A stretch of 64,000 nucleotides of DNA from Massospora cicadina (lineage: Eukaryota > Entomophthoromycota > Entomophthoromycetes > Entomophthorales > Entomophthoraceae), in assembly GCA_022478985.1 (NCBI GenBank), contig JAKSZP010009602.1, positions 1-64,000 of the forward strand. The letters run 5' to 3'. The notes under the pieces were generated by a model. That model saw only the letters and a program-made list of their open reading frames with translations. It was not told where the DNA came from and did not search any database. Below, one piece after another: positions 13,140-59,278 of this stretch (position 1 is the first letter of the stretch; each line of letters begins with the position of its first letter). Position numbers and translations under genes: made by a program.

Positions 13140-13830
13140 TGACATCCATGTCACCTGTTTATGATCCTTAGTTTTTTCTAAATAAAAGTTTTAACTTACT
13201 TTAACTGGCACATCAACGTTTAAAGCTCTTTATTTAGAAAACTGGACACTTTACACTAAAATGACACCAGAAGCTTTATACCATATGTTTATGAGCTTCA
13301 AAATTATAATCTCTACTATTCTTTAAAATGATAATTGTATAAGGCAAGAAATAGCATGAGACTGCAAGATTGGCTTCTTCAGCATTATAAGACTTTGTAT
13401 TGGAAAGATGGATCCTTATGCTCATAATGACAAACACAATCTTTAATCTTTTGGAAAGCTAAAAATCAAAACATATTAATTTACATAAAATTTATATAAT
13501 GCTTTATATCTATAGAAGCCAAACTTTAGTTCATTAGTCTCTAAATATATGCTTTAATATCTTTCTAAAGAATAATTAGATATCAACATTGGTAGCTTAG
13601 TTGGTCACTCATACAAAGTTTTATCTTTAAAGTACTGGATTTTCCAAAGTTATAGTAATACATGTCAAAATCTAATAATCATCCACTAAAAATCTTTTTA
13701 TATGTCATTTTGATTAAGATAATCACCACAATTAATTATATTATATTAGTTGTAATCAAACAACTGAAGATAGACTAAAAATAGCATAAGATTTTATTTG
13801 TCTTAGTAGAAAACTTTTCTTACAATTATC
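13140..13830. other. AT-rich spacer, nothing recognised
   Basis: About 690 bp, strongly AT-rich, with no usable open frame, no LTR or Helitron end and no tRNA-like box found on either strand. Confidence 0.5.
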
Positions 13831-13997
13831 TTTATTTATTTAAAGCAAGCTGACCAGGGGACGGACATTATAAAAATTAAATAAAGAAAAATTTTAACCT
13901 GAAACCTGATCAGGGTTAACTCCATAGAAAAAATTTTATTATCCACCTCGAGATTAGGACTCAAAATTTCTGATTACATCATGGGACTCTTACAGAT
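13831..13997 (-). mobile_element. SINE-a: 3' fragment of the SINE, cut by Gypsy-1
   Basis: Reads like 49652-49810: a tail block (AAGCAAGCTGACCAGGGGAC on the plus strand), then CTCGAGATTAGGACTCA and a TTACATCATGGG block. The tRNA-like head is missing: the sequence turns into the Gypsy-1 LTR at 13998, and no SINE head resumes beyond the other LTR at 38836. Confidence 0.75.
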
Positions 13998-30206: not shown

Positions 30207-30573
30207 TGTCATGATTCTGATATGACTGGATAATAGGCCCTAAGTCATTATGGTGGAACAGAGGGAATCTGCCAAGTTTGATATGAGTTATGGTAATTTG
30301 AGCGCCTTGAAATGGGATATTGGGTTGTTAGGGAAATCACCTCTAATTATGTGATCAGGAAAATAATGAATGAATAATTGGAGGAACCAATGAGATATGG
30401 CAAAGTGAATTACTAAGCCATGAAAGTGGTATCATCTGAAGTTACTATGATACAAGCAAGATGAGACAATCAAGAAAAGGAGGTTGTTAATATTTTAGAG
30501 AGGGAAAAACAGCAACAATCAGCTGTGTTTATTATAATGAATAAAGAAGTATAGTGGGGGCAAGTGCTCCATA

Positions 30574-31640
30574 TCTACTTAATAAAAAATTTTCACTGAT
30601 GTGCTGACTTATTGACTGACTGACTAACATCTGAAACCTTTGAGTCTGATAGGGTCAATCTATTTGGGTGAGTGGGTGAGAATTGGCAAATCTTATCAAA
30701 TCTGAAATTATCAATCCTGATGGGTTCAATCTGTTTGGGCGAGTGGGTGAGAATTGACAAATATCATTATATAATTCACCAAATTGCTCACCTGAAGCTA
30801 ATTGAGTTTAATAAGTTTAATCTATTTGGGTGAGTGAGTGAGAATTGGCAAATAAGATCAAATCTGAAGCTAATCAAATCTGATAGGTTCAATCTATTTG
30901 GGTGAGTGGGTGATAATTAGCGAACATTATCTAATAACTCACCAAATTGCTCACCCAAAACTATTTTTGTTATATAGAACTTAACCGCAAATTTTACCCA
31001 ATTAGTTATATAACACTTACCTATGAATTTTACCCAATAAAATCATAATTCAAGCTCCACTGATAAGCTTGCCATAAGGTATTGTTGTAGCTTGATTTAT
31101 TAAAGCTTTTTTAATAAAATTAGTTATATAAACCTTAACTACAAAATTCTATCCAATCAAATCATCTCCACAATCTAAGCTCCACTGATAAGCTTACCAT
31201 AAGTTATTGTTGCAGCTTGATATTAAAAGCTTTTACTAAAATTGATGCATATATAAGTATCACATTTTTAGTACATTCTACTCAACTTTTGATATTTATC
31301 TAAATATTATACTAAAATTTAAAGGTACCAAAGCACTGATTATTTTAGTGATATTACCTTGCTTAAATTGCAGAATTATAATTTCAATGAAAAGGGAAGC
31401 GCTTTAATATTTTTAGTTATTATTTTGGATTTAGAAATAACACTCATTAGATAGATTATCTAAAGTTATAGTTATAGCCATATACTTAACTTGCTGACCT
31501 CCATCTATCTAGCTGGTTTGATAGTTCTATCTATTGTTTTTAGTATAAAGTTGATAGTTATTTTAAATAAAATATAAATTAATAAATTTAAAAACTATAA
31601 TTTTATAGACACTGTAGCAAAGCACAGGTAAATTGGCTAG
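30574..31640 (+). mobile_element. Helitron-1: non-autonomous Helitron, 1067 bp
   Basis: Begins TCTACTTAATAAA, ends GGCTAG, and sits precisely between A and T. The uninterrupted site is preserved in the 3' LTR at 37731-37736 (ATA|TTA). A hairpin at 31612-31627 lies 13 bases before the end: CTGT-A-GC-AAA-GC-ACAG. All of this fits Helitron rules (5' TC, 3' CTRR, terminal hairpin, insertion in AT, no duplication). No Rep-helicase is encoded. The 5' third has four copies of a TTTGGGTGAGTGGGTGA motif. Confidence 0.93.
31612..31627 (+). other. Helitron-1 3' terminal hairpin
   Basis: CTGTAGCAAAGCACAG: stem CTGT/ACAG plus GC/GC around an AAA loop with one bulged A. The Helitron-2 interior copy at 40034 keeps CCGTAGCAAAGCA, so paired changes keep the stem. 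Confidence 0.8.
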
Positions 31641-38835: not shown

Positions 38836-39726
38836 TGGATATCTTAATTACTGTATTTTATACACTGGCTCCATATTGATAAATCTATAGACACTATTAT
38901 ATAAATAAAGTATAATAAAATATATAATAAGAACTATTCAGCTGAAAGGATGTTTAATGGAAATTTATAGGCTTATTTCATATAGTTTAACACAAAAAAA
39001 AATTGTGCAAGATAAAGGCTTATAATATCAACTATCTATAGTTATGAAAAAATGTCATTGCTAAAGATCTCTAATGCAATTTATGCTCTCTATATATGCA
39101 TATGATATATTTTCTAAAGTGAATATTAGTTTTATATAAGAACTATCTCATTGTTCAGTCCACTCTTTACATAATCAAAAAGTACAGAATATATATTTTA
39201 TTAAAAAAACTACTTTAATAATACATAAAATACTATCTATGTGAAAATTAATAAACTAAAAGTGGATTTATTATGGCTTATATGCTGTTGGTAATTATAC
39301 TTTTAGCATTTGCATACATCTATTCCTAACAGTTAACTAAATCAATGCATATATATTGAATGCACTTTAGTGCAGGTTTTATTCAACACATGTTCAAAAC
39401 CTGTACTGGCTATAAAAAAATCTGGGTGTGGTATATTTGTCCCAAAGGTCGACCTGCCTCAATTACTTTTATATGTTGAATGATGGGTAGTTTAAATTAG
39501 TAGAACGTATAAATAAAGATTCTCTAGAGAAATTAAGTAAAAATTGTTAAGATAGTATCAGTAACTGCATATAGCCTTAACTTGTCAGCATAATACTTTA
39601 AGTCAGTATAGATTCTGATAGCTTAGTGTAGGTATACATGTTAAGTACTGCTGACTCAGCTTACCTTGAATAAACATGTATCTGCTGATTTGATTACATC
39701 TGTATTCTAAATTATGAGCTCGTTTA
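38836..39726. other. AT-rich spacer, nothing recognised
   Basis: About 890 bp with many short A/T runs. No open frame of note and no element ends. It does not continue the SINE that flanks the other side of Gypsy-1. Confidence 0.5.
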
Positions 39727-40493
39727 TCTACTTAATAAAACACATTCACTGATGTACTCACTGACTGACTGACATCTGAAACCTTCGAATCTGATAGGTT
39801 CAATCTATTTGGGTGAGTGGGTGAGAATTGGCGAATATTATCTAATAATTCACCAAATTGCTCACCTGAAACACAACAAAAATCACTATTAGAGTTTAAG
39901 TAGATTAAGTAGTTAGATTAATCAGCTCACCAGCCACGAGGGCACCAGCGGAGCTGTTAGTCCGAGTGGCTTGAAAGTAGTGCTGGCACAGCCTATAGGC
40001 TACAATGTGAGCTTATCATTTGATAAACTAAATACCGTAGCAAAGCAGGGTATCTGGATGTTAGGTTTATATATTTTAAAACCTGCCTAATTTGGTTCAC
40101 CTAATTAATAAAATACTTTTGGCAAGTTAAGTAAAAGTTGATTTGGTAGTTTGGAAGATATGTCACGTACACGATGATTTTAAGTATAAAGAGATGTTTC
40201 GGGTAGCAGTTTGGTGTTATTTGATTGATTCGATAAGTTTATTTTGTTTGGCCGAGTGGTTAATGGCTTTTGGTCGAATCGATAGGACATAGTTTAGTTT
40301 TGAGGGGGATTAGTTATTGGTTGTTTTGATAAGTTCAGTAGATTTACTTGAGTGGTTGGTGGTTTTTGGTTGATTCGATTGAGCAATTAGATTTGGCTGA
40401 GTGGTTTTGTTTATCTACAATATAAAATCTAAATTAATAAATTTGAATCTTTAATTTTATAAACACCATAGCGAAGCACGGGTAATCGGCTAG
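39727..40493 (+). mobile_element. Helitron-2: non-autonomous Helitron, 767 bp
   Basis: Starts TCTACTTAATAAAACA after an A, and ends AATCGGCTAG before a T. Its 5' ~150 bp match Helitron-1 (CTGACTGACTGACATCTGAAACC, TTTGGGTGAGTGGGTGAGAA). A hairpin-like CCATAGCGAAGCACGG lies at 40466-40481. An internal near-end (CCGTAGCAAAGCAGGGTATCTG, 40034-40055) suggests either a second end within the element or two elements fused. Confidence 0.8.
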
Positions 40494-40524
40494 TCAAAAA
40501 ATATGGTAATGTCATAAAACAGCT

Positions 40525-40528
40525 AAAA
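40525..40528 (-). terminator. Pol III terminator of the tRNA gene
   Basis: TTTT on the minus strand, two bases after the tRNA 3' end. Confidence 0.6.
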
Positions 40529-40530
40529 GT

Positions 40531-40603
40531 TGGAGAACCCGGGCATCGATCCCGGTGCCTCACGCATGCGAAGCGCGCGCTCTACCATTTGAGCTAGTTC
40601 CCC
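40531..40603 (-). tRNA. tRNA-Ala, anticodon CGC
   Basis: 73 nt, read 5' to 3' on the minus strand from 40603. Acceptor stem GGGGAAC/GTTCTCC (one G-T pair), D arm GCTC-AAATGGTA-GAGC (Box A), anticodon arm CGCGC-TTCGCAT-GCGTG with CGC in the loop, variable AGGCA, T arm CCGGG-ATCGATG-CCCGG (Box B region), discriminator A, and no encoded CCA or intron. All four arms pair. A T4 terminator follows. It decodes GCG alanine codons. The T-loop starts ATCGA instead of the commoner TTCGA. It is the only host gene found in the window, lying 37 bp from Helitron-2 and 82 bp from Helitron-3. Confidence 0.95.
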
Positions 40604-40685
40604 ATAAATTTATTCACTTCTTTTTTTATTATATTTTTTAAATCTAAACGTTATCACCTTATTTTTATAAATAAAGGTCAACTCA

Positions 40686-41041
40686 TCTGCTTAAAATACA
40701 TTCACTGACGGACTGACTGACTGACATCTGAACCTTCGAGTCTGATAGGTTCAACCTATTTAGGTGATTGTGCGAGAATTTGTGAATATTATCAAATCTG
40801 AAACTATTGAGTCTGATAGGTTCAATCTATTTGGGTGAGTGGGTGAGAATTGATGAATATTGTCAAATAATTCACTGAATTGCTCATCTGAAACTAAAAA
40901 AAATCAGTGTTGGAGTTTTAAGTAGATAAGTAAAGTTAGGATAATCAGCCAAGCAACCATGAGGGCAACAGCAAAGCTGTTAGTCCAAGTGGCTCAAGAA
41001 CAGTGCTGGCACAGCCTTTAGGCTGTCAGTGTGAGCTTATA
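40686..41041 (+). mobile_element. Helitron-3: 5' fragment of a Helitron-2-like element
   Basis: Starts TCTGCTTAAAATACATTCACTG after an A and follows Helitron-2 up to GTGCTGGCACAGCC...GTGAGCTTAT. It then diverges, with no clear hairpin or CTAG end in the following sequence. Several differences from Helitron-2 are CpG changed to CpA or TpG. Confidence 0.7.
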
Positions 41042-41315: not shown

Positions 41316-41332
41316 AGGTAAAGGTGCTTTAA
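41316..41332. repeat. LINE-III target-site duplication, left copy
   Basis: AGGTAAAGGTGCTTTAA, identical to 46608-46624. Confidence 0.9.
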
Positions 41333-41499
41333 ATTTATTGCGGGGAAGGCCAACCATGGGACGGACACTTCCGAATATGACTCAGACGAGACAAAACTCA
41401 GTACCAGGTGAGGCACCCCAGAGAAGCGATGCTATCTCTTGTTGCCAGCGGGAACGCCACTTATGGGAAGGGGGAGGGAACGTGTGTAGGGGCTGTAGC

Positions 41500-44400
41500 C
41501 ACTATTGAGCACGTGTGGAGGAAGGGGTCTGATTTGATGAACCAGACTGGGAACCAGGAGGAGACCAGCTGCCGGCGACGTGGTGGGAGATATCCAAACA
41601 CCCATGCTTGAAAGTGGTCCACCAAATGAGACCGGAATCTGTGAGACAGCTTCAGGGAGGGTGGGGATGGATCCGGCGATGGCCTCCAAGACAATCGTGT
41701 GGATAGTCCACATGGCGATTGCAACCACCAGAGCACGAAGGGAGGGTGGGAGGGGGAGGCCATTGATGAAGCAAACATATCTCTTGACAGACTGAAGGGA
41801 TGTGTTTGATCCTGGCCTAGCAGACGTTGGACTTCGCGCCATATCACTTTAGAGGTGGGGCACTTCTCCAGGCGGTGAAACAGCGTTCCATACTGGCCAC
41901 ACACGACACAGGATGAGTGTAAAGCGTTAGAGCGCTCAGCTGTACAATACACCTGCCTCAGGCAGCGCCACACATGAGAACGGACTTGAGGCTGCAGCAG
42001 AGGATGGTGTGCGTATTGCCAGATAGTCTTTTGGGTCTCAGTGGAATAAGGGATGTCCATCATGTCCAGGTAGTCCACCCTGGATAGGACTTGGGGTCGA
42101 ATGGGGATCACGCCCTCATGGATGGGTAGCCCCTGTACCTCTTGTGTGAACTGAGGAGAGGGACGGCCTCTTTGGGTTGTATGTCCACTAATACGAATTC
42201 TCCACTCTGCGCTTCGCATGGAGAGTAGGATTCGTTTGTAGTGGGTTTTTGTCCCGTGAGGACCTGTGGCTGATGTGTGTGATGCAAGGTATTTCATCAG
42301 GGAGTGGGGGTTTGATGGGTTGTTGAGGCCCAAGGCTCAGGAGAAGTTGGAGCGGGCCGCGCAGGACCAGTGTTGGGATGGGAGTGTAGGAGCAGTGACA
42401 GCCACAATCCAGGTGCCCAGGATCTTGGCGGCATGGGCTTTGAAGTCAAGTAGGCCCATGCCACCATGATGTTGAGGGCCAAACATGACCTCAAGTCGTA
42501 CTGGTGGAGGGCGGCCTGACCAAAGCCAACCTTGTAGCAAAGCATACAGGGATTTGAAGAAGCTTTGGGGAGAAGGGGATGGCGTGGGCTCCAAACCAGA
42601 CTTTGGATAGGAGCATAGAGTTGGCAAGCACAACCCTGCCAGTGAGGGTCGTAGGGTGGTCTCTGAGAGAGGCGATTCGCTTCGTCACGTTGTCCAGTAT
42701 ATGGTCCTCCATTACTGCTGACACGTATCCTCCCGCCTCCAACCACACGCCCAGATGGCGTACCGGCCCTATGGTAGGTCGCGGCACAAAGGGGAGCACC
42801 AGTGGAGCGGTGTGTTTTGAGTTAGTGAGGCGTGGACTTGGGCGAGCAGCTGGGCTGGGTTGGGAACTACTTGCTGGGGCCCAGCAGTTCTGAAACCAAC
42901 CAAGGAGGATGATTTCAGTTTTGGAGGCGTTCAGTGCCGCGTTGCTTACCCGGGAATATTCCTGGATGAGGGCTTCAAGCGCGCATGCATCTTTATTATT
43001 AGACACCCCCACCACGCAATCATCTGCAAATGCCATCATCTTGACTGGGGTTTGGCCTGGCACATGAACCCCAGTGAGTTGGGCATTCACATTTCGCAGT
43101 AGTGGGTCAAGGCTGAAGTTGTATAAGAGTGGGCTCAGTGGGTCCCCTTGTCGCAGGCCCCTTTGAGGATGGACTACATCCGTTAGGAAACCTGGGCTGC
43201 GCACAGCCATTGTTGCAGATTCCGTGAGCAGCATCACCCAGTTAATGAAGCGGGGAGGTAGGCGGAATTGTTGGAGGCAGGCCCTAAGGTATTCCCAGTT
43301 TACTCTATCATAGGCCTTTTGTTGGTCCAAGAATACCAGTGCTCCAGAGGCTGTGGACTGACACACATTAGCCACAGAGTGCACGTTATCCCAAATTGAC
43401 CTTCTGGGGATAAAACTGAATTGTTCTGGAGAGATGGTGGCAGATGCTACAGTCCCTAAACGGTTAGCCATGATTTTTGTTAAAATTTTGGTGTCTGTGT
43501 TTGTTAGAGAAATGGGGCACCAGTTGGCTAAGTCTAGCCTATCCCCTTTCTTGAAGAGTGTGACTGTAAAAGCCTCATGTCCTCCTGGTAGGAGGCGCGT
43601 TTCCAACAGGCTTTGGTTGAGTGAGGCTAGCAGCAATGGGGATATGTATTTAAAAATATTTTGTAGAACTCATATGGAATGCCATCTGGGCCTGGGCATT
43701 TTCAGTTTGGTGCACTGCAAATGGTAGTCCATAATTCGTTTGGAGTAATTAAATTCATTATTTCTGGGTATCAGAAAACGGTGCAGATATGAGCTCTGTC
43801 GAGAAATTCTGCCATTTCGGCCAGCTGAATTGGTTCGGCTCGGTATAACTCGGAGTAATAATTTTGCATTTCAATTGCCACTTTGGCCAGTGTGTCCGCA
43901 ATAGAATTATCCGATCTTCGCACCTGTGTGCAGGCCACGCTCTGGCATGGTGCAAAAAATTTTTTGAAGAAGTATGCGGTGCACTTGTCATCTTTATTGA
44001 TGCGTGTGGCCCTGTATTGGACACAAACCCGATGCTTGTGTTGCCTTTCAAGTGCATTGAGGTGTGCTGCTGCTTCCGCCCACTTCTGGCCCCATGCATG
44101 GCTATATCCTGAGGCTGGAATGTTGGACTCCAAATGGGCCAATTCTGCCAGCGCGCGCGATATAACCGCCGATGTGGCTCGTGAGCGTCTGGATGAGAGA
44201 TGGCGATAGTGGTGGATGGTGTCTTTTTTGAAAGTTGCCCATGTGGAAATGGGGTCCGCGCAAAACGGTGCAACAAATGATTTTGCCAAAGTTACCTCTT
44301 CCACCCACGTGGAAAATCCTGGTGACGCAAGCTCTGTGGGGCGGATTTTGCACCAATGTGGGGCCTTTGCAACTGTGACGGGTAAGTGGTATGTTATCGA

Positions 44401-45090
44401 GACCAGTCGGTGGTCGGAGAATTCCATTTTCGTTGTTTTGAAGTGGGAGATATGGGGTTGGAATTTCGCCGGCGCTAGAATAAGGTCAATGCGGGTCATG
44501 GATCTTAATTGACCATTGTGGATGTGGGGACGCGTCATGTTTTTGAGCAGTGGGGCATGTCGCGGCAGCGCATCCACTAACCCAAGGGTGGCTTTTAGAA
44601 TACGTAGTTCTATATGACCCTGTGGGGCGTGGGGTGAGGGCGGCCACCAGTCCGTTGGTGAGGTTAGCCAACAGTTCATGTCACTGATTAGGAAAGAATC
44701 GGGGGGTATCGGGAGGGATTTGACCGACGAGAAAAATCCCCGATGTTCTTGTGCACCGTTTGGGGCGTAAATGTTGACAATTGTGTGTGCAACATCGGCC
44801 CAAGAGAAGGTGACAACGAGCACTCAGTCATTTAGGAATGTTTCTGAAGATGTAAATTTAAAAAAATTGTTTTTCCGAATTAGCACCCCACAGTGCTTTG
44901 ACCAAAAGGATAGGGATGGTAGGAGCATTGTTTTCCAAGCATCCTCGGAACCTCATGGACAGTGGGTCTCCTGGATGGCCAGGATATCCACGGGTAAATT
45001 ATTTTGTAAAAAACTCAGTTTCCTAGCCCGGGACGGGGAGGCCTTGAGTCTGGCGATATTCAACGTCCCTAGAGTGAAGGTTTCCCCCAT
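41500..45090 (-). pseudogene. LINE-III ORF2, endonuclease-reverse transcriptase (broken)
   Basis: The start ATG at 45090 corresponds to that of LINE-IV at 56788. Endonuclease at 45090-44200 (VDILAIQE, ISDMNCWL, IDLILAPAKFQPHISH, FSDHRLVSITYH), RT at 43720-42550 (KKGDRLDLANW.PISL, FSFIPRRSIWDNVHS, FLDQQKAYDRVNW, GLRQGDPLSPLLYN, catalytic MAFADDCVVG at 43030), and C-terminal zinc motif CVVCGQYGTLFHRLEKCP at about 41910-41860. Stops: TGA at 44824-44826, 43771-43773 and 43702-43704. A frameshift lies at about 43650 and another near 42540. A TAG near 41505 matches the ORF2 end in LINE-IV. Confidence 0.85.
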
Positions 45091-45099
45091 TGCACCTTA

Positions 45100-46511
45100 G
45101 GTGCGAGGGGTGGGCCCCCTGGCCCACCAGCCTCTTCCAGGTCCCCACGGGCTTTCACAGCAGTGCGGGTATTAGCAGCAATGCTATCGTGGTTTTTGTT
45201 GATTTTTGCGGAAAGAGTTGCGTTGGCTTTGGCCTTCACTTTTTGTTTTCCCGACGTCGGACGAATTTTTTGCGGTGCGGATAGGTTCGGTGCACCGTCG
45301 AGTGGGGCGAAAATTTTTTTTCGGTTGGGATAGGTCCCAAGTCGGTTTCAACCGGGGCTTGGGTGCAGCAATTGGGTGAGATCAAATCTCCCATTGGATC
45401 CTCAGATTGAGTGGCCCGTTTGGCTTGGGCCTCCCCATCTGATTGGGTGATGGATTCCCGAGTTGCTTCCGCCGCAAAGGTCTCCATGTCCTCCTGGCGT
45501 TGTGAGTGTGGGATGGTGGTGGGGACCTTGGCCGCTTCCTTGGCCGCAGTCCTATGGGCCTGCTTGGCCTTCTTCCGCTCCTGCGGGGAGATGGGCTTTA
45601 CCAATAGGTAGCAGCCTTGTGCTCCCCACGGGAAGGCCTCTTTGGTGCTTACAGTTGGTTCGTAGTGCGCCTCTCCGCTGGCCATGGCCGCCGAGGGGTG
45701 CTCTTGGAATGTAATGCCCTCTTTAATGGGGCATGCATGTGCCTTATGGCCGAACGCGTCACAGTGGGTGCAAATGGGGGCGCGCTGTCCACGGTTACCT
45801 GGAATGGGTGGGTGGTGTGCCCTGCGATATCAATAAAGGTGGAGTGCGGGATCTGGGTTAGGTCCTTCATGATCTCCTCAGATGGGGTCAGAACTGCAAT
45901 GGCTTTGCTGGTGCACAGGTGTGGCATCAGCGTGAAACGTTGCATTTCGAAAGATTGTATTTCGCCATATATGGCGAGACCATCTTTCAGGTGTTGCTCC
46001 AAAATGTCACGTTTTACCGTAGTAGGCAAAAGTCAAACGTGAGGAAAATTTGGTTCGAATTTGTCCATCTGGTGCATTTAGTTTCGACGACCCGTTGCCC
46101 TTCGGGGAGGTCTACCACTACACGCACCGCTGCAGCCTCGTCTGCTGCTATTTTGTTTTTGAAACCTAGGTCCAGCCAACCGCGTGACATGGAGTGAGGT
46201 GCAACGTACACCGCGATCGGGAAAATTTTGTGTACATCTTCACAAAATTTTTCCCACAGGGCCATTTTTTGGATGTCCAGATACACACGGACTCCAAATT
46301 CCACCGACAAAAGTGGCTGGGAATGTGGCATATTGATGTACTGGTTGCATCGTGCTTGCCACGCGAGTATCTCTGGGGAAATTGTGACCACCAGTTTTTT
46401 CAAATTTTTTTTTTCTATTCCGCCGGATTCTCCGGGGCGTTTTTGAACGTTAGAGGCCGCGGGCCTTCCGCCTGCTCCTCTTGCTTTGCTTGCCCAACTG
46501 CTCCCAGACAT
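45100..46511 (-). pseudogene. LINE-III ORF1, RNA-binding protein with CCHC knuckle (broken)
   Basis: ATG at 46511 (MSGSSWASKARGAGG). The RRM/DUF4283-like domain is intact to about residue 160 (MALWEKFCEDVHKIFP, GWLDLGFKNKIAADE, CTRWTNSNQIFLTFDF). A 1-base deletion at about 46027 shifts the frame (LPTTVKRDILEQHL continues in 46029-45649). A second 1-base deletion at about 45778 hits the knuckle region, which is intact in LINE-IV. The last part is 45685-45236, with KKAKQAHRTAAKEAAK. ORF1 binds element RNA. These deletions are absent from LINE-IV, so they arose after the two copies separated. Confidence 0.85.
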
Positions 46512-46607
46512 GGGCGCAGACTAATCCCCTCTATGAGATTATCAAACTGGAGTAAGTCTTGAATTGAATGGGTTGCAAAAGTGTTTGCAACGAGAGAGAG
46601 AAGTTTC

Positions 46608-46624: not shown

Positions 46625-47003
46625 TGGGTTCAAAACCTGTCAGGGATAGGATGAATATAATTTCATCCATCTCTCTTATCATTATTCAATTAATGATATG
46701 GAGTAAAAAATTGATCTTATAAAAAAAGGACTTACATGAATATATGAAAATATATAAAAATGTCCTGTCATATTTCAAGTAAATTATATAAAGTATCATA
46801 AGATTAATATAGTCAAAACTAGTATCAATCTAGTCTAAATATAGTTAGGTTACCTACTCAGAGAACAGTATACCAAACAAATTTAGTCTAGATAACAATA
46901 AATGAAAAATCATTAATTTGAGATAGCTGCAATGACACATTATGGTATCCCTTATTTTCACTCAGCTTATTAATACTTTTATGCTATTATCTAAACTGCT
47001 TTA
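46625..47003. other. AT-rich spacer, nothing recognised
   Basis: About 380 bp with no feature found on either strand. Confidence 0.5.
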
Positions 47004-48860
47004 AATTTTATTCAAGGTACGCTGACCAGGGGATGGACAGTACCAAAATCAAAACAAAATAAAGGACCAGATCAAAAAAATGAGAAGGCAAAACAAAAAC
47101 AAAAAACTTCTAACCAGGCAATGGCAGAAACTGCTAACCCACCATGACAGAGGGTGAGGGGGTTGGGCAGGTTTTTTGCAGACATATCCACCATGACAAT
47201 GTCATTTTCTTTGATTATGTGGGCAAAAGCGGATAGCCAAAGCATTGTGGCATCAGGGTAGTGTGGGTGGATGGTGGTGTAGTAAGAGTTCTCCTCTTCA
47301 TTAGCTGCAAAGTAAACGGCTTCAACAAATTCTGCTAAGTGATTCTCAGCTTGAATGCGGGCATTGGGGAGCTAGGAAAAATTGGAGATACTATGGAAGG
47401 TGATTTTAGTGGACAGGTTAAATTCTGCCAGTTTAGCAACATGCATAACAGCAGCTTTGGCATTGTCAAACATTTTTGAAATATTGCTGCATGCTGATTT
47501 GGGGAAATCAGGGGGAAGTAGAGTGTGGGCAGACCTAGTTGCTATTGAGCCACTGATTGAGCCACTGTTTTGCATAGGTTTGGGCAATGGGGGGAAACCA
47601 CCACTGCAAAGGTGAGCTGATGGTCACTTTGGTAGAGGGAAGCATTGAGTTTAGAAGTGAAATTGTCTGGGGATGGGGTATCATCAAAACCAGAACAAAA
47701 AATTCAGCCCGACCATAATTGAACTGGCCAAGGAGTTGACTGGATACCTCATTCATGATAACCTCACCTGATTCATCAATCTCGGCCAATAAGTCACATT
47801 GATTTTGGTTTACAAGAATAATGGATGTATTCAGGTGGGTAGGAGGTGAATTGGCTGCTTGGGTAAGTAGTGTGGTCCAAGCCTGACTCTGATTGGCTGA
47901 GGTAGAGTTGGAGTAGGCTAATGGCGGTAGTTGATTTAGTGGGGGCTGATTTCCCACTCAGGCCCATCAATTAGATCATAGAGTGGGAGGGGCAGCAAAC
48001 TGCCCCATTCAGAATCCGCTGAATAGGGCTCCAAAGCCATATTAGAAGAAGTGGCATGGGGTAGGATTTTTTTGAATGGTCAATCCCAAAGCAGAGGGGA
48101 CAAATTTGGCAACCATTATCAACATGAGCCCAAAAGAAATGCTCAGGTGCTGCTGCAATACAAGCATGGGGGGATCTGGTGGGCTATGGCAGGGTGGTGA
48201 GGTATTATGGTGGCGGTTGCATGATGGGCAGCAAGGTGCTCCACTCCAGAGAGAACAGAAAAGATGAGTTTGGGCTGAGTGCTATAAGCCATAAGCCCTA
48301 CCATCAGCTGATCATACAAAAGTTGGGGGGAAGATGGGAAGGGAAGGATGCAAATACACCACCAGTGTGGTGTCAGATGGGAGGCAAATATGGGTAGTAG
48401 GGATGGGAGTGTTTTTGTAAATAAATGGAGTTGAAGCTGCTGCTGCAGCGTCCTCCTCCATCTAAAAGCCTGTGTCAAAATAGCCCTTAAAAGTGTGGAA
48501 ATCAATAAAACCTGCCAGCACAAAGGCAGCATTGGTGAGATCAACAATTGCTTTGTCAGCATATGGGAATAATTGCCCATAGTTGACATGGAGGCAAAAG
48601 TGAATGTTGGACTGAGGAAAGGTGAGAGGGTGGGGGCAAGATGGGTGGATGTGTTCTAGGTGGAGCATTAAGTCCCATGGGAGGACGAGTTGGCCAGAAA
48701 AGTTTAGCAGAATATTTGAGCCTGTTCACACATGTTTCCCTGCAGGGTGGAAAATGCTAGGGGGTGGAGCACTGCTGCCCCAAACTGGGGCAGCAGGCAG
48801 TGGATCTGTTGACATCAAGTGGAAAGTGAACGTGGCCAGATGGCGGTGAATAAAATAAAT
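47004..48860 (-). mobile_element. O1-a: ORF1-only element with LINE-like 3' tail
   Basis: About 1.86 kb, same layout as O1-b at 50090-51971 on the other strand. It holds one ORF1-like gene and ends, on the minus strand, in GTCCATCCCCTGGTCAGC...TTGAATAAAAT, the tail shared with the LINEs and SINEs. No endonuclease or RT. Ends are approximate, as no clear duplication could be read (AT-rich flanks). Confidence 0.7.
47100..48815 (-). pseudogene. O1-a ORF1-like protein gene (broken)
   Basis: ATG at 48815 (MSTDPLPAAP), Pro-rich start, then HPLTFPQSNIHFCLHVNYG, LFPYADKAIVDLTNAAF and GFIDFHTFKGYFDTGF. An indel at about 48480 moves to the frame with LLYDQLMVGLMAYSTQPKL. The spacing of these blocks follows the LINE ORF1 domain (GWLDLGF, CTRWT, RDILEQHLKDGL..YG). 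A short zinc motif, CQICPLCFGIDH, sits at about 48100. The C-terminal part (47960-47160) has blocks LAEFNLSTKIT and LPNARIQA, also in O1-b. Probably an RNA-binding protein; the function is inferred from layout, not from a recognised family. Confidence 0.6.
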
Positions 48861-48869
48861 TTTTTTAAC

Positions 48870-49630
48870 TTTTTTATTGAAATTCACTCAAAAGTGAGTT
48901 CAAACAGAAAGAAAATCTTTACTTTTATGCTATTATCAAAAACTATATATTTTATTGTAGGATTTAATAAAAAATTGTTTTAATTGAGATATAAATAAAA
49001 ATTGTTTTATCTATCTATATCTATATATATAAATGAATGATTGCTTGTATATAATAATTTTTATAAGGGCCTACATTTGTATGCAGTCATCTCAGAAAAT
49101 ACTGATATAATTTTAAAACTAAGATTATATAAGTTACAGAATAAAGTTTTTGCATTTCATTTGATAGTACTAAAGTTATGGATTCCACTCAAGGAGTTAA
49201 ATCACTTAATGGTAGAATTGACCCCAAAATACCAGAAGATATTAAAAAATCAAAATATTAAGAGATATGCAAATATTAAAAGTAACTATAAAGAGGAATA
49301 CTATCAGGAAAATTTTATAATAGCCCTGGGAAGATCACAGGTTATAATGCTAATATTTGATATTTTATCTGAGTATTTTAATTTAATAAATTGGAGTTTT
49401 TACTAGTAAATCCATGGCCAAAATAATTCATGCAATATTAAAATTATTGGAAATCATAAATAAACACTTGATATGAGTCATTGTGCCACTAATCCAACAA
49501 ATACAATTCAGATAGTGATATACAACTTGATTAATGTGAGGTACTACCCCTAAATATACCTTGTTTGACTAAAAGAATTCTGGATTACCTAGAAGATCTA
49601 AGTGGCTTCAAAGCCATTAAGATATTACCA
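48870..49630. other. AT-rich spacer with short TATC/TA repeats
   Basis: Contains a simple-repeat stretch at about 49006-49030 (TCTATC and TATATA). A 121-codon frame at 49041-49406 is AT-rich, Ile/Leu/Lys/Asn-rich, has no recognised motif and may be chance. Confidence 0.45.
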
Positions 49631-49641
49631 AACCTGAATAT

Positions 49642-49942
49642 ATTTTTATTTATTTGAGGCAAGCTGACCAGGGGACGGACATTACCAAAATAAAGAAAGA
49701 AAGTATTGACATGAAACCTGAGCAGGGTCAACTCTGTCGTAGAAAGTTTTTTTTTTCACCTCCAGATTAGGACTCAGATTTTTCTGGTTACGTCATGGGT
49801 AAGGTTTTTGTGTTATTATACCTACTAACTGCCAATAGCTTCCTTCAGCTGGCACCCCAATATATGTGTGAAGGGCAGGAATTGAACCCATAACTTTCAG
49901 GTTGGTAGCCATATGCCCTACTGACTCGCCTTCCACCCCTTC
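49642..49942 (-). mobile_element. SINE-b: full-length tRNA-derived SINE, 301 bp
   Basis: Flanked by the 11-bp duplication AACCTGAATAT (49631-49641 and 49943-49953). On the minus strand the head is tRNA-like: an A-box-type GGCGAGTCAGTAGGGC at the start and a B box GGTTCAATTCC at 49888-49878. A body of ~220 bp follows, then the tail GTCCCCTGGTCAGC...CTCAAATAAATAAAA. The length matches SINE-c (303 bp). Confidence 0.88.
49878..49888 (-). promoter_or_regulatory. SINE-b Pol III B box
   Basis: GGTTCAATTCC on the minus strand, one change from the usual GGTTCGANTCC, about 55 bp from the SINE start, as in a tRNA. Confidence 0.7.
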
Positions 49943-50089
49943 AACCTGAATATTAGTACTATAGGATACTTATGAAGGTACCATAAATTGCTTTAATGTT
50001 GATTAGAGACTTTAAATCTAATATAAATTAATTTTGTTCATTTAACCACTCAACATCACTTTTAAGAAATTTTAAAAAAAGGCAATTTT

Positions 50090-51971
50090 TACCACCACCT
50101 CACTGCATCAACTACCCAATTTATGTCCTCAGATCCACCACCTGCTGCCCCATGTGGGGCAGCGAGGCTCCACCCACTAGCATCTACCACCCAGCAGGCA
50201 AACGCATGTGGACTGTCTCATCCAGTCCACCAAATAAATCCAGTCGCTATGTCCCTCCAAGGGACATAGCACTCTACCTCACACAATTCCACCCAAACCG
50301 CCCCCATCCCTTAGCCCTACCTCAATCCACTATCCACTTTTCCCTCCGAGTTGATTATGAATGTCTCTTTCCATATGCTGACAGAGAAATGATTGAGCTG
50401 GCAACTGCCACCTTTGCATCGTCAGGATTTATAGACTTTCACCCCTATAAAGGCTATTTTGACATAGGCTTTCCCATCAAAGAGGATGTGGCCACTGCAG
50501 CTGCTATGCCCTTAATATATAAAAACACCCCAATTACCACCATCCAAACATGTCTCCCAGATGATACCACACTTGTGGTGAACTTTGCAAACCTCTTCTC
50601 ACACCTTCCCCCTCAAACTCTTTATAAAGAGTTGATGTCAGGGCTGTCCACTTATGGTAAAAACCCCATCCTCCAATTCATTGTACCAAATGGTTCTGAG
50701 CGCCTCATGGCACCTTGGGCAATGACCACCATTACCCCCCACCAGCTGAAAATGGCCCAGCACATCCCACCACATTTCTATATCTCATCCACACCCAGCC
50801 ATTTCTTTTGGGCTTGCATTGACAATGTTCAAAATTTGCCCCCTCTGCCATGAGTTGGACCACACAAAAAACATGCTGATACAATTCAAATTCCTGCAAA
50901 AATGCCCAACTTCACCCATGAGCCACACCAACAGCGTTCGAGTAGAAATTTTGGCTGCCCCCACCCCCAGGCTGAGTGCTAAATGAATCAGCATCAAATT
51001 GAGCAACCCAAATCCAAGCCAGCCAAATCTAAGCCAGACAAATCCAAGCAGGCCAATATACACCCATGACAACCAATCAGGAGCAGGTTTTGAACATGTT
51101 TAACCTATAAAATCTCCCACCCCAAAACTTACCCAACCACAAACATATTCCCACATATTACCAAGTCAACCAAAATTCCTGGGACTTATTGGATGAAGTG
51201 ACTAAATCTTGTGAAATTGTCACCATCAGGTTATCCATTTGATTTAGAACCTTATCTGAATTCAGACTTTGATGCCCACAGCCTCAACCAACCAATATGT
51301 CCCCAAACCCAATGCTACCCCTTTCTAAAGTGACCACCAGCTTGCTGAGTCCATGGTGGACTCACCCAAAAATAGCCATCTTTGCAGAAACATGGCAAAA
51401 TCTGTCACAGAATTTAAAAAAGGGCTGATCCCCACTTGTTCCCCCAAGATCCCTCCTATTGCAAAAGAGGAAATTACGCGCCTCATGAAACTGCCAACAC
51501 CGCTGTCAAACATTTTTATGAACTGGCAGATTTCTCCTCATCCACACATATCACCAGAGCCAATATTGAGAAAATAGAATAACTTCCCAACGCCTGCATA
51601 CAGGCTAAACACCATGTTGCAAACTCATAGAGGCTTTGATCCAGTTTAAATTGTAGATCTCAACAATTACCTTCTTTACCTTGACCCTCATCCCATGGAT
51701 GCCCAACCCCCTTGCTCTCAGTATTGATCCGCCTCTACAATGCTGAGCCTGATGATGATCCACCTGATCCCTCCTCCCCCTCCACCATGGTGTGATAAGC
51801 AGCTCACTGCTGTGCCACCTGGTAGGTTATTTTTTCATTTCTTTTTGTGTCTCACTGCTTGATAAGGGCGGTCAGTTCATGTTTTTTAGTTGTTTTGGTT
51901 TTTGGTTTTGGAGTTTCAGTTTCAGTATTGTCCATCCCCTAGTTGGCTTTCCTCAGTTAAATAAAAAACAT
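50090..51971 (+). mobile_element. O1-b: ORF1-only element with LINE-like 3' tail
   Basis: Second copy of the O1 element, on the plus strand. Similarity to O1-a begins near 50090 (ACCACCACCT) and the copies align to the tail TTGTCCATCCCCTAGTTGGC...CAGTTAAATAAAA. Only one ORF1-like gene lies within. Boundaries are approximate. Confidence 0.7.
50123..51790 (+). pseudogene. O1-b ORF1-like protein gene (broken)
   Basis: ATG at 50123 (MSSDPPPAAP) matches the O1-a start. A missing base near 50155 moves the reading into the 233-codon frame 50152-50853: HPLALPQSTIHFSLRVDYE, LFPYADREMIELATATF, GFIDFHPYKGYFDIGFPI, TLYKELMSGLSTYGKNPIL and QHIPPHFYISSTP. A shift at about 50830 is needed to read the zinc-like ICPLCHELDHTKNML. 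The C-terminal half (51340-51600) has KHFYELADFSSSTHIT and LPNACIQAKHH, parallel to O1-a. By layout it resembles LINE ORF1 (RRM-like domain, then short zinc motif). No enzymatic domain follows. Confidence 0.62.
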
Positions 51972-53025: not shown

Positions 53026-53200
53026 AATTTAATTTATTGCGGGGAAGGCCGACCATGGGACAGACACTTCCGAATATGACTCAGACGAGACAAAACTCAG
53101 TACCAGGTGAGGCACCCCAAAGAAGCGATGCTATCTCTTGTTGCCAGCGGGAACGCCACTTATGGGAAGGGGGAGGGAACGTGTGTAGGGGGCGTAGCCA

Positions 53201-56200
53201 CTATTGAGCACGTGTGGAGGAAGGGGTCTGATTTGATGAACCAGACTGGGAACCAGGAGGAGACCAGCTGCCGGCGACGTGGTGGGAGATATCCAAACAC
53301 CCATGCTTGAAAGTGGTCCACCAAATGAGACTGGAATCTGTGGACAGCTTCAGGGAGGGTGGGGATGGATCCGGCGATGGCATCCAAGACAATCGTGTGG
53401 ATAGTCCACATGGCGATTGCAACCACCAGAGCACGAAGGGAGGGTGGGAGGGGGAGGCCATTGATGAAGCAAACATATCTCTTGACAGACTGAAGGGATG
53501 TGTTTGATCCTGGCCTAGCAGACGTTGGACTTCGCGCCATATCACTTTAGAGGTGGGGCACTTCTCCAGGCGGTGAAACAGCGTTCCATACTGGCCACAC
53601 ATGACACAGGATGAGTGTGAAGTGTTAGAGCGCTCAGCTGTACGATACACCCGCCTCAGGCAGCGCCACACATGGGAATGGACTTGAGGCTGCAGCAGAG
53701 GATGGTGTGCATATTTCCAGATAGTCTTTTGGGTCTCAGTGGAATAAGGGATGTCCATCATGTCCAGGTAGTCCACCCTGGATAGGACTTGGGGTCGAAT
53801 GGGGATCACGCCCTCATGGATGGGTAGCCCCTGTACCTCTTGTGTGAACTGAGGAGAGGGGCGGCCTCTTTGGGTTGTATGTCCACTAATACGAATTCTC
53901 CACTCTGCGCTTCGCATGGAGAGTAGGATTCGTTTGTAGTGGGTTTTTGTCCCGTGAGGACCTGTGGCTGATGTGTGTGATGCAAGGTATTTCATCAGGG
54001 AGTGGGGGTTTGATGGGTTGTTGAGGCCCAAGGCTTGGGAGAAGTTGGAGCGGGCCGCGCGGGACCAGTGTTGGGATGGGAGTGTAGGAGCAGTGACGGC
54101 CGCAATCCAGGTGCCTAGGATCTTGGCGGCATGGGCTTTGAAGTCAAGTAGGCCCATGCCACCATGATGTTGAGGGCCAAACATGACCTCTAGCCGTACT
54201 GGTGGAGGGCGGCCTGACCAAAGCCAACCTTGTAGCAAAGCATACAGGGATTTGAAGAAGCTTGGGGAGAAGGGGATGGCGTGGGCTCCAAACCAGACTT
54301 TGGATAGGAGCATAGAGTTGGCAAGCACAACCCTGCCAGTGAGGGTAGTAGGGTGGGCTCTGAGAGAGGCGATTCGCTTCGTCACGTTGTCCAGTATATG
54401 GCCCTCCATTACTGCTGACACGTATCCTCCTGCCTCCAACCACACGCCCAGATGGCGTACCGGTCCTATGGTAGGTCGCGGCACAAAGGGGAGCACCAGT
54501 GGAGCGGTGTGTTTTGAGTTAGTGAGGCGTGGACTTGGGCGAGCAGCTGGGCTGGGTTGGGAACTACTTGCTGGGGCCCAGCAGTTCTGAAACCGACCAA
54601 GGAGGATGATTTCGGTTTTGGAGGCGTTCAGTGCCGCGTTGCTTACCCGGGAATATTCCTGGATGAGGGCTTCAAGCGCGCATGCATCTTTATTATTAGA
54701 CACCCCCACCACGCAATCATCTGCAAATGCCATCATCTTGACTGGGGTTTGGCCTGGCACATGGACCCCAGTGAGTTGGGCATTCACATTTCGCAGTAGT
54801 GGGTCAAGGCTGAAGTTGTATAAGAGTGGGCTCAGTGGGTCCCCTTGTCGCAGGCCCCTTTGAGGATGGACTACATCCATTAGGAAACCTGGGCCGCGCA
54901 CAGCCATTGTTGCAGATTCCATGAGCAGCATCACCCAGTTAATGAAGCAGGGAGGTAGGCGGAATTGTTGGAGGCAGGCCCTAAGGTATTCCCAGTTTAC
55001 TCTATCATAGGCCTTTTGTTGGTCCAAGAATACCAGTGCCCCAGAGGCTGTGGACTGACACACATTAGCCACAGAGTGCACGTTATCCCAAATTGACCTT
55101 CTGGGGATGAAACTGAATTGTTCTGGAGAGATGGTGGCAGATGCTACAGTCCCTAAATGGTTAGCCATGATTTTTGTTAAAATTTTGGTGTCTGTGTTTG
55201 TTAGAGAAATGGGGCGCCAGTTGGCTAAGTCTAGCCTATCCCCTTTCTTGAAGAGTGTGACTGTAAAAGCCTCATGTCCTCCTGGTAGGAGGCGTGTTTC
55301 CAACAGGCTTTGGTTGAGTGAGGCTAGCAGCAATGGGGATATGTATTTAAAATATTTTTTGTAGAACTCATATGGAATGCCATCTGGGCCTGGGCATTTT
55401 CAGTTTGGCGCACCGCGAATGGTAGTCCATAATTCGTTCGGAGTAATTAAATTCATTATTTCTGGGTATCAGAAAATGGTGCAGATATGAGCTCTGTCAA
55501 GAAATTCCGCCATTTTGGCCAGCTGAATTGGTTCAGCTCAGTATAACTCAGAGTAATATTTTTGCATTTCAATTGCCACTTCGGCCAGTGTGTCCACGAT
55601 AGAATTATCCGATCTTCGCACCTGTGTGCAGGCCACACTCTGGCGTGGTGCAAAATTTTTTTTGAAGAAGTATGCGGTGCACTTGTCGCCTTTAGTGATG
55701 CGTGTGGCCCTGTATTGGACACAAACCTGATGCTTGTGTTGCCTTTCAAGTGCGTTGAGGTGTGCTGCTGCCTCCGCCCACTTCTGGCCCCATGCAGGGC
55801 TATATCCTGAGGCTGGAATGTTGGACTCCAAGTGGGCCAATTCCGCCAGTGCGCGCGATATAACCGCCAATGTGGCTCGTGAGCGTCTGGATGAGAGATG
55901 GCGATAGTGGTGGATGGTGTCTTTTTTGAAAGTTGCCCATGTGGAAATGGGGTCCGCGCAAAACGGTGCCACAAACAATTTTGCCAAAGTTGCCTCTTCC
56001 ACCCACATGGAAAATTCTGGCGACGCAAGCTCTGGGGGGCGGATTTTGCACCAATGTGGGGCCTTTGCAACTGTGACGGGTAAGTGGTATGTTATCGAGA
56101 CCAGTCGGTGGTCGGAGAATTCCATTTTCATTGTTTTGAAGTGGGAGATGTGGGGTTGGAATTTCGCTGGCGCTAGAATAAGGTCAATGCGGGTCATGGA

Positions 56201-56788
56201 CCTTAATTGGCCATTGTGGATGTGGGGACGCGTCATGTTTTCGAGCAGTGGGGCATGTCGCGGCAGCGCATCCATTAACCCAAGGGTGGCTTTTAGAACG
56301 CGTAGTTCTATGTGACCCTGTGGGGCGTGGGGTGAGGGCGGCCACCAGTCCGTTGGTGAGGTTAGCCAACAGTTCATGTCGCCAATTAGGAAAGAATCGG
56401 GGGGTATCGGGAGGGATTTGACCGATGAGAAAAATTCCTGACGCTCTTGTGCACCGTTTGGGGCGTAAATGTTGACAATTGTGTGTGCAACATCAGCCCA
56501 AGAGAAGGTGACAATGAGCACTTGGTCATTTAGGAATGTTTCTGAAGATGTAAATTTAAAAAAATTGTTTTTCTGAATTAGCACCCCACAGTGCTTTGAC
56601 CAAAAGGATAGGGATGGTAGGAGCATTGTTTTCCAAGCATCCTCGGAACCTCGTGGACAGTGGGTTTCCTGGATGGCCAGGATATCCACGGGTAAATTAT
56701 TTTGTAAAAAACTCAGTTTCCTAGCCCGGGACGGGGAGGCCTTGAGTCTGGCAATATTCAGCGTCCCTAGAGTGAAGGTTTCCCCCAT
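53201..56788 (-). pseudogene. LINE-IV ORF2, endonuclease-reverse transcriptase (near-intact, three stops)
   Basis: ATG at 56788, directly after ORF1. The 416-codon first part (56788-55538) is the AP-type endonuclease with all key blocks: LGTLNIARL, IQETHCPRG, IGDMNCWL, IDLILAPAKF, FSDHRLVSIT. A TGA at 55538 ends it. Two further TGA follow (55469-55471, 55400-55402), then the 710-codon frame from 55333 holds the RT (KKGDRLDLANWRPISL, FLDQQKAYDRVNW, GLRQGDPLSPLLYN, MAFADDCVVG near 54720) and the C-terminal zinc motif CVMCGQYGTLFHRLEKCP near 53600. No RNase H was recognised. Without the stops the protein would be about 1195 residues, within the LINE range. It nicks DNA and primes cDNA synthesis there. 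Confidence 0.9.
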
Positions 56789-56799
56789 CGCACCTTAGG

Positions 56800-58211
56800 T
56801 GCGAGGGTGGGGCCCCCTGGCCCACCAGCCTCTTCCAGGTCCCCACGGGCTTTCACAGCAGTGCGGGTATTAGCAGCAACGCTATTGGGGTTTTTGTTAA
56901 TTTTTGTGGAAAGAGTCGCATTGGCTTTGGCCTTCGCTTTTTGTTTTCCCGACGTCGGACGAATTTTTTGCGGTGCGGATAGGTTCGGTGCACCATCGAG
57001 TGGGGCGAAAAAAATTTTTTTTTGTTTGGGATAGGTCCCAAGTCGGTTTCAACTGGGGCTTGGGTGCAGCAATTGGGTGAGATCAAATCTCCCATCGGAT
57101 CCTCGGATTGAGTGGCCCGTTCAGCTTGGGCCTCCCCATCTGATTGGGTGATGGATTCCCAAGTTGCTTCCGCCGCAAAGGTCTCCATGTCCTCCTGGCG
57201 TTGTGAGTGTGGGATGGTGGTGGGGACCTTGGCCGCTTCCTTGGCCGCAGTCCTATGGGCCTGCTTGGCCTTCTTCTGCTCCTGCGGGGAGATGGGCTTT
57301 ACCAATAGGTAGCAGCCTTGTGCTCCCCATGGGAAGGCCTCTTTGGTGCTTACGGTTGGTTCGTAGTGCGCCTCTCCGCTGGCCATGGCCGCTGAGGGGT
57401 GCTCTTGGAATGTAATGCCCTCTTTAATGGGGCACGCGTGTGCCTTATGGCCGAACGCGTCACAGTGGGTGCAAATGGGGGGCGCGCTGTCCACGGTTAC
57501 CCGGAATGGGTGGGTGGTGTGCCCTGCGATATCAATAAAGGTGGAGTGCGGGATCTGGGTTAGGTCCTTCGCGATCTCCTCAGATGGGGTCAGAACTGCA
57601 ATGGCTTTGCCGGTGCACAGGTGTGGCATCAGCGTGAAACGTTGCATTTTGAAAGATTGTATTTCGCCATATATGGCGAGACCATCTTTCAGGTGTTGCT
57701 CCAAAATGTCACATTTTACCGTAGTAGGCAAAAAGTCAAACGTGAGGAAAATTTGGTTCGATTTTGTCCATCTGGTGCATTTAGTTTCGACGACCCGTTG
57801 CCCTTCGGGGAGGTCTACCACTACGCGCACCACTGCAGCCTCGTCTGCTGCTATTTTGTTTTTGAAACCTAGGTCCAGTCAACTGTGCGACATGGAGTGA
57901 GGTGCAACGTACACCGCAGTCGGGAAAATTTTGTGTACATCTTCACAAAATTTTTCCCATAGGGCCATTTTTTGGATGTCCAGATACACACGGACTCCGA
58001 ATTCCACCGACGAAAGTGGCTGGGAATGTGGCGTATTGATGTACTGGTTGCATCGTGCTTGCCACGCGAGTATCTCCGGGGAAATTGTGACCACCAGTTT
58101 TTTTAAATTTTTTTCTATTCCGCCGGATTCTCCGGGGCGTTTTCAAACGTTAGAGGCTGCGGGCCTTCCGCCTGCTCCTCTTGCTTTGCTTGCCCAACTG
58201 CTCCCAGACAT
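56800..58211 (-). pseudogene. LINE-IV ORF1, RNA-binding protein with CCHC knuckle (nearly intact)
   Basis: ATG at 58211, as in LINE-II and LINE-III. Frames: 58146-57943, 58094-57879, then 57833-56853 (326 codons). The RRM/DUF4283-like domain spans about residues 50-230 (MALWEKFCEDVHKIFPTA, CTRWTKSNQIFLTFDFLP, LCTGKAIAVLTPSEEI). The CCHC knuckle CTHCDAFGHKAHAC is intact at about 57480-57430, followed by basic KKAKQAHRTAAKEAAK and a Lys/Arg-rich tail. A Trp codon is TGA near 57880 (HS-stop-LDLGF, where LINE-III reads RGWLDLGF), and small indels occur near 58100 and at the end. It probably coats LINE RNA; it is the reference copy for the family here. Confidence 0.87.
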
Positions 58212-58305
58212 GGGCGCAGACTAATCCCCTCTATGAGATTATCAAACTGGATTAAGTCTTGAATTGAATGGGTTGCAAAAGTGTTTGCAACGAGAGAGAG
58301 AAGTT

Positions 58306-58325
58306 TTTAGAATGCCAATTAATTT
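58306..58325. repeat. LINE-IV target-site duplication, right copy
   Basis: Exact 20-bp match to 53006-53025. Confidence 0.92.
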
Positions 58326-58975: not shown

Positions 58976-59278
58976 TGGGGGTGGAAGGCAAGCCTTTAGG
59001 GTGTATGGCTACCAATCTGAAGGTTATGGGTTTGATTACCCACCCTTTGCATATTGATCAGGGTGCCAGCTGAAGGAAGCTATTGGAGTTTAGTAGGTCC
59101 AATAACATGAAAACCTTACCCATGTCGTAACCAGAAAACCTGAGTCCTGATCTGGAGGTGGAAAAACTTTCATTGACAGAGTTGACCCTTCACAGGTTAG
59201 GTTTCATGTCAATACTTTCTTTCTCTATTTTTGCAATGTCCATCCCCTGGTTAACATGCCTTAAATAAATATAATAGT
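58976..59278 (+). mobile_element. SINE-c: full-length tRNA-derived SINE, 303 bp
   Basis: Flanked by the 14-bp duplication TAATTACAAGAAAT (58962-58975 and 59279-59292). Head GGTGGAAGGCAAGCC... with B box GGTTTGATTAC at 59029-59039, body as in SINE-b, tail GTCCATCCCCTGGTTAACATG...TTAAATAAATA. Many differences from SINE-b are C to T or G to A. Confidence 0.9.
59029..59039 (+). promoter_or_regulatory. SINE-c Pol III B box (degenerate)
   Basis: GGTTTGATTAC, the same position as GGTTCAATTCC in SINE-b. Confidence 0.6.

Follow-up and report, generated by a model that had tools for sequence, protein, structure and literature searches.

O1, an abundant family of ORF1-only elements in Massospora cicadina, probably forms a separate lineage of non-autonomous non-LTR retrotransposons

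ORF1-only elements, which carry open reading frame (ORF) 1 without ORF2, are known mainly as HAL1, offshoots of L1 in mammals, and as the telomeric HeT-A, which depends on reverse transcriptase (RT) from elsewhere. HAL1 is a non-autonomous L1 derivative of several origins that encodes only the ORF1 protein (PMC5753468) and is likely served by L1 (PMC4161310), and HeT-A of Drosophila encodes a Gag-like protein, lacks ORF2 (PMC11698117), and is arranged in arrays at chromosome ends. Here we describe O1, a family of ORF1-only elements in the fungus Massospora cicadina, starting from two copies, O1-a and O1-b, in a stretch of 64,000 nucleotides (assembly GCA_022478985.1, contig JAKSZP010009602.1, positions 1 to 64,000) referred to below as the window. 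O1 is very probably a separate, long-lived lineage of non-autonomous retrotransposons of the non-long-terminal-repeat (non-LTR) type, one that would supply only its own ORF1 and use in trans the RT of long interspersed nuclear elements (LINEs).

A retroelement of barley powdery mildew is reportedly a short interspersed nuclear element (SINE) that specifies a short effector peptide and not an ORF1 protein. Its description presents it as a non-autonomous retrotransposon coding for a peptide (PMC6022598). In Blumeria, the EKA/AVRk1-AVRa10 genes are described as very many copies derived from truncated LINE ORF1 and as proposed effectors (PMC4641428). Type I ORF1 proteins, as summarized for the I, Jockey, R1, Tad1, plant L1, and L2 clades, carry at least one RRM directly upstream of a CCHC knuckle (PMC4120745). 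Repeats are reported to make up about 92.4% of the M. cicadina genome and L1 LINEs 6.3%, and the accessible part of that repeat comparison does not mention ORF1-only elements (PMC10515909). A search of the open-licence literature, largely of ranked titles and the starts of abstracts, brought up no fungal LINE family limited to ORF1; this agrees with an earlier interpretation of the window made from its letters alone (the sequence-only reading), which named no described fungal equivalent.

That reading had proposed two elements of about 1.9 kb on opposite strands, each with one ORF1-like gene and a tail of the LINE/SINE kind. Both elements are present (Table 1); they are colinear from end to end, with 66.9% identity over 759 columns in the 5' part, and both terminate in such a tail. 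The gene is homologous to LINE ORF1 but is broken in both copies. In O1-b the frame is intact for the first 233 amino acids (aa); the rest of O1-b and all of O1-a are matched piecewise, in differing frames, to an intact relative. The best direct repeat flanking O1-b is 8 bp only. O1-a and O1-b both represent degraded members of an abundant family.

We searched the assembly (1.47 Gb, 16,968 contigs) with O1-b DNA and with the protein P0001. The DNA query gave 43 genome matches (best 40 of 7,875 first-look candidates scored), and the protein query gave 150 matches among the best 150 of 93,154 candidates scored; by our own tally, the matched part is free of stops in 143 of the 150, and 9 lie in frames of at least 560 aa. 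These first-look candidate numbers are not copy numbers. Two sets of loci were fetched: 30 of the O1-b subfamily, window copy included, and 39 of a second subfamily, O1-c (L031-L069), the final nine of which were picked for long frames. With nearest-neighbor identities of 0.755 to 0.821 (30 copies), the O1-b subfamily is judged to be old; none of its 30 copies has an unbroken full-length frame, the longest frame being 273 aa. By its sequences O1-c is a young subfamily: nearest-neighbor identities are 0.904 to 0.994 (30 copies), L065 and L066 carry ORFs of 568 aa, and L070 matches residues 1-568 without gaps at 94.5%.

An O1-c element spans about 1,887 bp and consists of a 5' hairpin, one ORF of 568 codons, and a 3' tail of the LINE/SINE kind. 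With a fixed 5' end and the tail as its limits, the unit was measurable at 31 of 39 loci (median, 1,887 bp), 30 of them at 1,881 to 1,891 bp; the longest (L052, 1,935 bp) reflects a misplaced 3' end, and the remaining eight, L066 among them, have no recognizable 5' or 3' end by the pattern used. The tail is visible, soon after the ORF, in all 39 aligned rows, as read by eye. Direct repeats of at least 10 bp (median, 16 bp) flank 26 of the 31 measured loci, compared with 6 of 604 mispaired flanks, and the O1-c unit is therefore discrete with target-site duplications on both sides, as in non-LTR retrotransposons. Among the O1-b loci, 26 of 30 reach query base 1875 or beyond and 25 of 30 also begin at or before base 28. 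O1-a, O1-b, and O1-c are colinear. Flanks adjoining three O1-b copies (L005, L006, and L027) hold more O1-like sequence at about 37 to 53% identity to O1-c and by that measure represent further O1 subfamilies. In flanking sequence O1 makes up 8,364 of 145,814 bases, an estimate biased by the choice of flanks adjoining O1. An M. cicadina protein named DNA topoisomerase 2 (P0013) contains a stretch 98% identical to the O1 protein (O1p) over 17% of the query, which may stem either from an O1 copy that inserted recently or from fusion in the gene model. A plasmid search returned no O1 match and a search of prokaryote contigs returned none coding for an O1 relative, in keeping with a eukaryotic element.

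The absence of endonuclease and RT claimed for the window copies extends to all O1 elements examined. With the RT and endonuclease of the window element LINE-A as queries (E 1e-4), no match was found inside any of the 69 elements, and no longer relative with RT was seen inside O1 at these loci; O1 thus has ORF1 without ORF2, as HAL1 does. RT matches are confined to the flanks of 4 of the 69 loci (L001, L024, and L030, all antisense, and L062), and the endonuclease query had no match anywhere in the 69 loci. At L062 an O1-c copy is inserted in a LINE RT gene, splitting it.

O1p has two RRM-like folds in tandem, recognized by structure comparison only, upstream of a CCHC knuckle recognized by motif, and about 300 further residues beyond the knuckle. 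In the intact copy P0003 (residues 240-253) and in the outside relative P0012, the short Cys-x2-Cys...His motif of the sequence-only reading proves to be a complete CX2CX4HX4C knuckle. The RRM/DUF4283-like blocks of that reading held up as RRM by fold but found no Pfam match to either RRM or DUF4283: no Pfam family scored above cut-off for the O1-b ORF, P0003, or P0001, DUF4283 was not among the Pfam families matched by members of A2, and searches of NCBIfam and PDB sequences gave no family above cut-off for O1p. A window LINE ORF1 itself gave only a sub-threshold zinc knuckle in Pfam. An RRM, by fold, upstream of a CCHC knuckle is the arrangement of type I ORF1 proteins; these are described in RT-coding elements, whereas O1p comes without RT and with the extra C-terminal part. 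That part has no counterpart in LINE endonuclease or RT, and alignments with LINE ORF1 stop at residue 407. NCBI annotates O1 copies as hypothetical proteins.

A search with the 568-aa protein returned ten records, nine from M. cicadina and P0012, and the O1-b ORF returned two, both from M. cicadina. P0012 (587 aa) is 40% identical over 94% of the O1 protein, and its start and end motifs agree; its contig, lgn, has 1,857 bases and is too short to show RT downstream. Among the best 74 of 101,406 candidates scored with P0012 in the M. cicadina genome there was no close copy, the best reaching 44% over the full length and the N-terminal part up to 59%; as a protein query P0012 led to no further source. 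The existence of a full-length relative outside this genome suggests that the O1 protein is old. The O1 protein is closer to P0012 than to the ORF1s of two LINEs in its own window (24 to 25% identity), which bears out the earlier view of a separate, diverged lineage. In a tree of the RRM-knuckle domain (O1-c thinned to four copies, pieces below 110 residues excluded, O1-a without a row of its own), 40 O1 rows and 9 LINE ORF1 rows from four clusters split at 100/100, and because of this separation we read O1 as not a fresh LINE deletion. P0012 falls inside O1 at 82/70, a weak position. The bootstrap of the tree had not settled.

The ORF was under constraint, contrary to one refuting condition of the sequence-only reading, since synonymous changes are more frequent among variants that several copies share than among singletons. 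In 30 O1-b copies, variants present in at least four copies were 77 synonymous and 95 nonsynonymous (8 of the 95 being stops), against 210 and 666 for singletons (P = 7e-8), which are spread evenly over codon positions 1, 2, and 3 (294, 301, and 281); O1-b copies are only about 60% identical to the O1-c frame, so that the C-terminal part is blurred in these counts. For 30 O1-c copies the ratios were 46/50 for shared variants and 100/230 for singletons (P = 0.002). The difference holds in the part of the protein outside that used for copy selection (25/27 versus 54/145, P = 0.007) and is not significant in the part so used (21/23 versus 46/85, P = 0.15). On the simplest reading, master copies would have been held to the protein and their offspring copies later decayed.

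O1 elements also share both ends with LINEs. O1-c, O1-b, and most LINEs with a readable 5' end start with a lead rich in pyrimidines, and a hairpin with CACTT(T) at its loop comes next; LINE L010 agrees in lead and loop letters without a stable fold. Stem letters vary by class yet pair: in 18 elements 118 of 126 pairs form, none of 20,000 re-pairings did as well (best, 108), and stems paired across classes average 3.07 of 7. In this comparison the register was set by hand, as a MAFFT alignment of the 5' ends was out of stem register, with 6 of the 30 O1-b copies used and O1-a, which did not fit, omitted. Under a fixed rule applied to all copies, at least 5 of 7 pairs form in 36 of 39 O1-c and 18 of 29 O1-b copies (one O1-b was not found); re-pairing within O1-b equaled the observed value in 204 of 5,000 trials. 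Folding z scores at the 5' end were -4.2 for O1-c, -4.4 for LINE-A, -1.0 for O1-a, and 0.1 for O1-b. Hairpins with a CACTT(T) loop and compensated stems occur in several LINE families (58264-58306 and 46560-46606 in the window; L004, L006, L014, L018, and L024), possibly as a general signal of these LINEs.

At the 3' end, we inspected five stretches of LINE and found the tail in L071, L073, and L075 and not in L072 or L074; SINE_3 was left out of the comparison. The O1-b tail scores 51 and 54 with those of LINE_L073 and LINE_L075, versus 19 to 33 with LINE-A to LINE-D (99.9% of shuffled, 22). For O1-a and O1-c the closest tail is that of the other (64), followed by SINE_1 (57 with O1-a, 53 with O1-c). 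O1-c scores 50 with LINE_L075, with no LINE tail partner found that is as close as L073/L075 are to O1-b; O1-a scores 22 with LINE-A and LINE-B, the noise level. The L073 and L075 tails lie about 5 kb downstream of L010- and L066-type LINE ORF1s and after RT remains, a link between ORF1, RT, and tail that rests on spacing. Through O1-b and L073/L075, O1 has a 3' end in common with an autonomous LINE.

We propose that an O1 RNA would be made that includes the 5' hairpin and the 3' tail, that O1p, with its two RRM-like domains, knuckle, and C-terminal part, would be translated from it, and that O1p would coat its own RNA, probably in cis. The endonuclease and RT of a tail-matched LINE would then take this RNA in trans and copy it through target-primed reverse transcription, which would give rise to the direct repeats of about 16 bp. 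Which LINE family helps O1 we infer. In an alternative close to this proposal, O1 is an old offshoot of a past or present autonomous LINE with an O1-type ORF1 plus endonuclease and RT, an ancient HAL1-like event. O1p must derive from an ORF1 once paired with RT, LINE ORF1s are diverse in this genome, and our scoring covered top candidates only; against it, no RT or endonuclease lies inside O1 at 69 loci, and the tail follows soon after the ORF in every aligned O1-c row. We consider such an offshoot possible, if doubtful, and since it differs from the proposed lineage mainly in history and not in present mechanism, our confidence in the two overlaps.

Recurrent internal or 3' deletion of ordinary LINEs, a repeated origin as in HAL1, would account for the homology of O1p to LINE ORF1 and for two ends built on the LINE plan. 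It is strongly disfavored and in our estimate very improbable: O1-a, O1-b, and O1-c are colinear, with the 1.9-kb layout at 25 of 30 O1-b and 31 of 39 measurable O1-c loci; the direct repeats border this unit itself; in the tree the rows of O1-b, O1-c, and P0012 are separated from those of the four LINE ORF1 clusters; and the C-terminal part is without counterpart in LINE endonuclease or RT. Mobility through the RNA ends alone, as in a long SINE with the ORF a passive remnant, would fit the SINEs that have the same kind of tail and no ORF, but the synonymous excess among shared variants and the 40% identity of P0012 over nearly the whole protein, start and end included, make it quite improbable. 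Extremely improbable is a domesticated, EKA-like family of host genes that arose from ORF1 and multiplied through segmental duplication or as processed copies; its ORF would be constrained and its copies annotated as hypothetical proteins, as here, but the candidates are very numerous and dispersed, repeats of about 16 bp and LINE-like 5' and 3' ends are present, and full-length frames are missing from all 30 O1-b copies. Returning to the separate lineage, a broader and, taken as a whole, rather unlikely extension is that O1 and the LINEs make up a split non-LTR system. Here an RT-free Gag-like lineage would persist as an independent replicator across species, would retain a 5' hairpin and tail of the LINE type by means of compensating changes in the stem, and would use helper LINEs that differ by subfamily (the L073/L075 family for O1-b), and O1p might also package LINE or SINE RNA. 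ORF1 function would then be a resource pooled or contested across the whole element community.

O1 resembles HAL1 in concept, as had been suggested, in being non-autonomous with ORF1 and no ORF2. It is fungal, however, with a tandem RRM and CCHC ORF1 of another type, is not derived from mammalian L1, and differs in standing apart from the sampled LINE ORF1s and in having a full-length homolog outside its genome. Like HeT-A it codes for a Gag-like protein only; unlike HeT-A, its copies are dispersed, single, contig-internal (telomeres were not located), on both strands, and flanked by repeats of about 16 bp. O1 shares with EKA a fungal host, relation to ORF1, and high copy number, but EKA has lost the knuckle part, whereas O1 is a complete element that has ends of its own and an intact ORF1 and, to judge by young full-length copies with direct repeats, is probably itself mobile. 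With an ORF1 clade of its own, an outside relative, subfamilies of different age, and two terminal signals in common with LINEs, O1 offers a way to study the role of ORF1 for an RNA in cis, the terminal signals recognized by LINE RT, and whether a division of Gag-like and RT functions between elements can last. Some of what is classed as LINE sequence in this genome may not be autonomous LINE.

Table 1. Features of the O1 copies and neighboring elements in the window
Feature	Position	Strand	Basis
O1-a, decayed ORF1-only element, between direct repeats	46992..48919	-	end-to-end alignment with O1-b
O1-a 3'-side direct repeat (target-site duplication), 18 bp, exact	46974..46991		repeat comparison
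O1-a 5'-side direct repeat (target-site duplication), 18 bp, exact	48920..48937		repeat comparison
O1-a 3' tail, common to LINEs and SINEs	47007..47043	-	tail comparison
O1-a 5' terminus, region of the decayed hairpin, fold not significant	48880..48914	-	folding
O1-a coding remains, O1-c protein residues 7-379, 378-440, and 438-560 in different frames	47159..48797	-	protein match
O1-b, decayed ORF1-only element, 5' terminus to tail, limits approximate	50041..51965	+	genome matches, ends
O1-b open frame, 233 aa, N-terminal tandem-RRM part of O1 protein	50152..50853	+	ORF
O1-b C-terminal remains, O1-c residues 329-358 and 390-455	51132..51487	+	protein match
O1-b 3' tail, most similar to that of one LINE family (L073, L075)	51925..51965	+	tail comparison
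SINE between O1-a and O1-b, tRNA-like head by eye, similar tail	about 49643..49939	-	self-comparison
LINE-A: ORF1, endonuclease, RT; 5' hairpin and tail of the O1 plan; candidate helper class	53028..58306	-	ORFs, ends
LINE-B, 96.8% identical to LINE-A	41328..46606	-	self-comparison

LINE-B and LINE-A bracket the O1 pair in the same orientation as each other, with direct repeats of 17 and 20 bp. The window holds three SINE copies (the one in Table 1, 58978-59271, and 13824-13985), whose tails resemble those of O1; the SINEs differ from O1 in having no protein gene, and the two longer copies have, by eye, a tRNA-like head. Short diverged direct repeats cluster at 30572-31243 and 39725-41040 and are common to both places, and a tRNA-Ala gene lies at 40529-40604.

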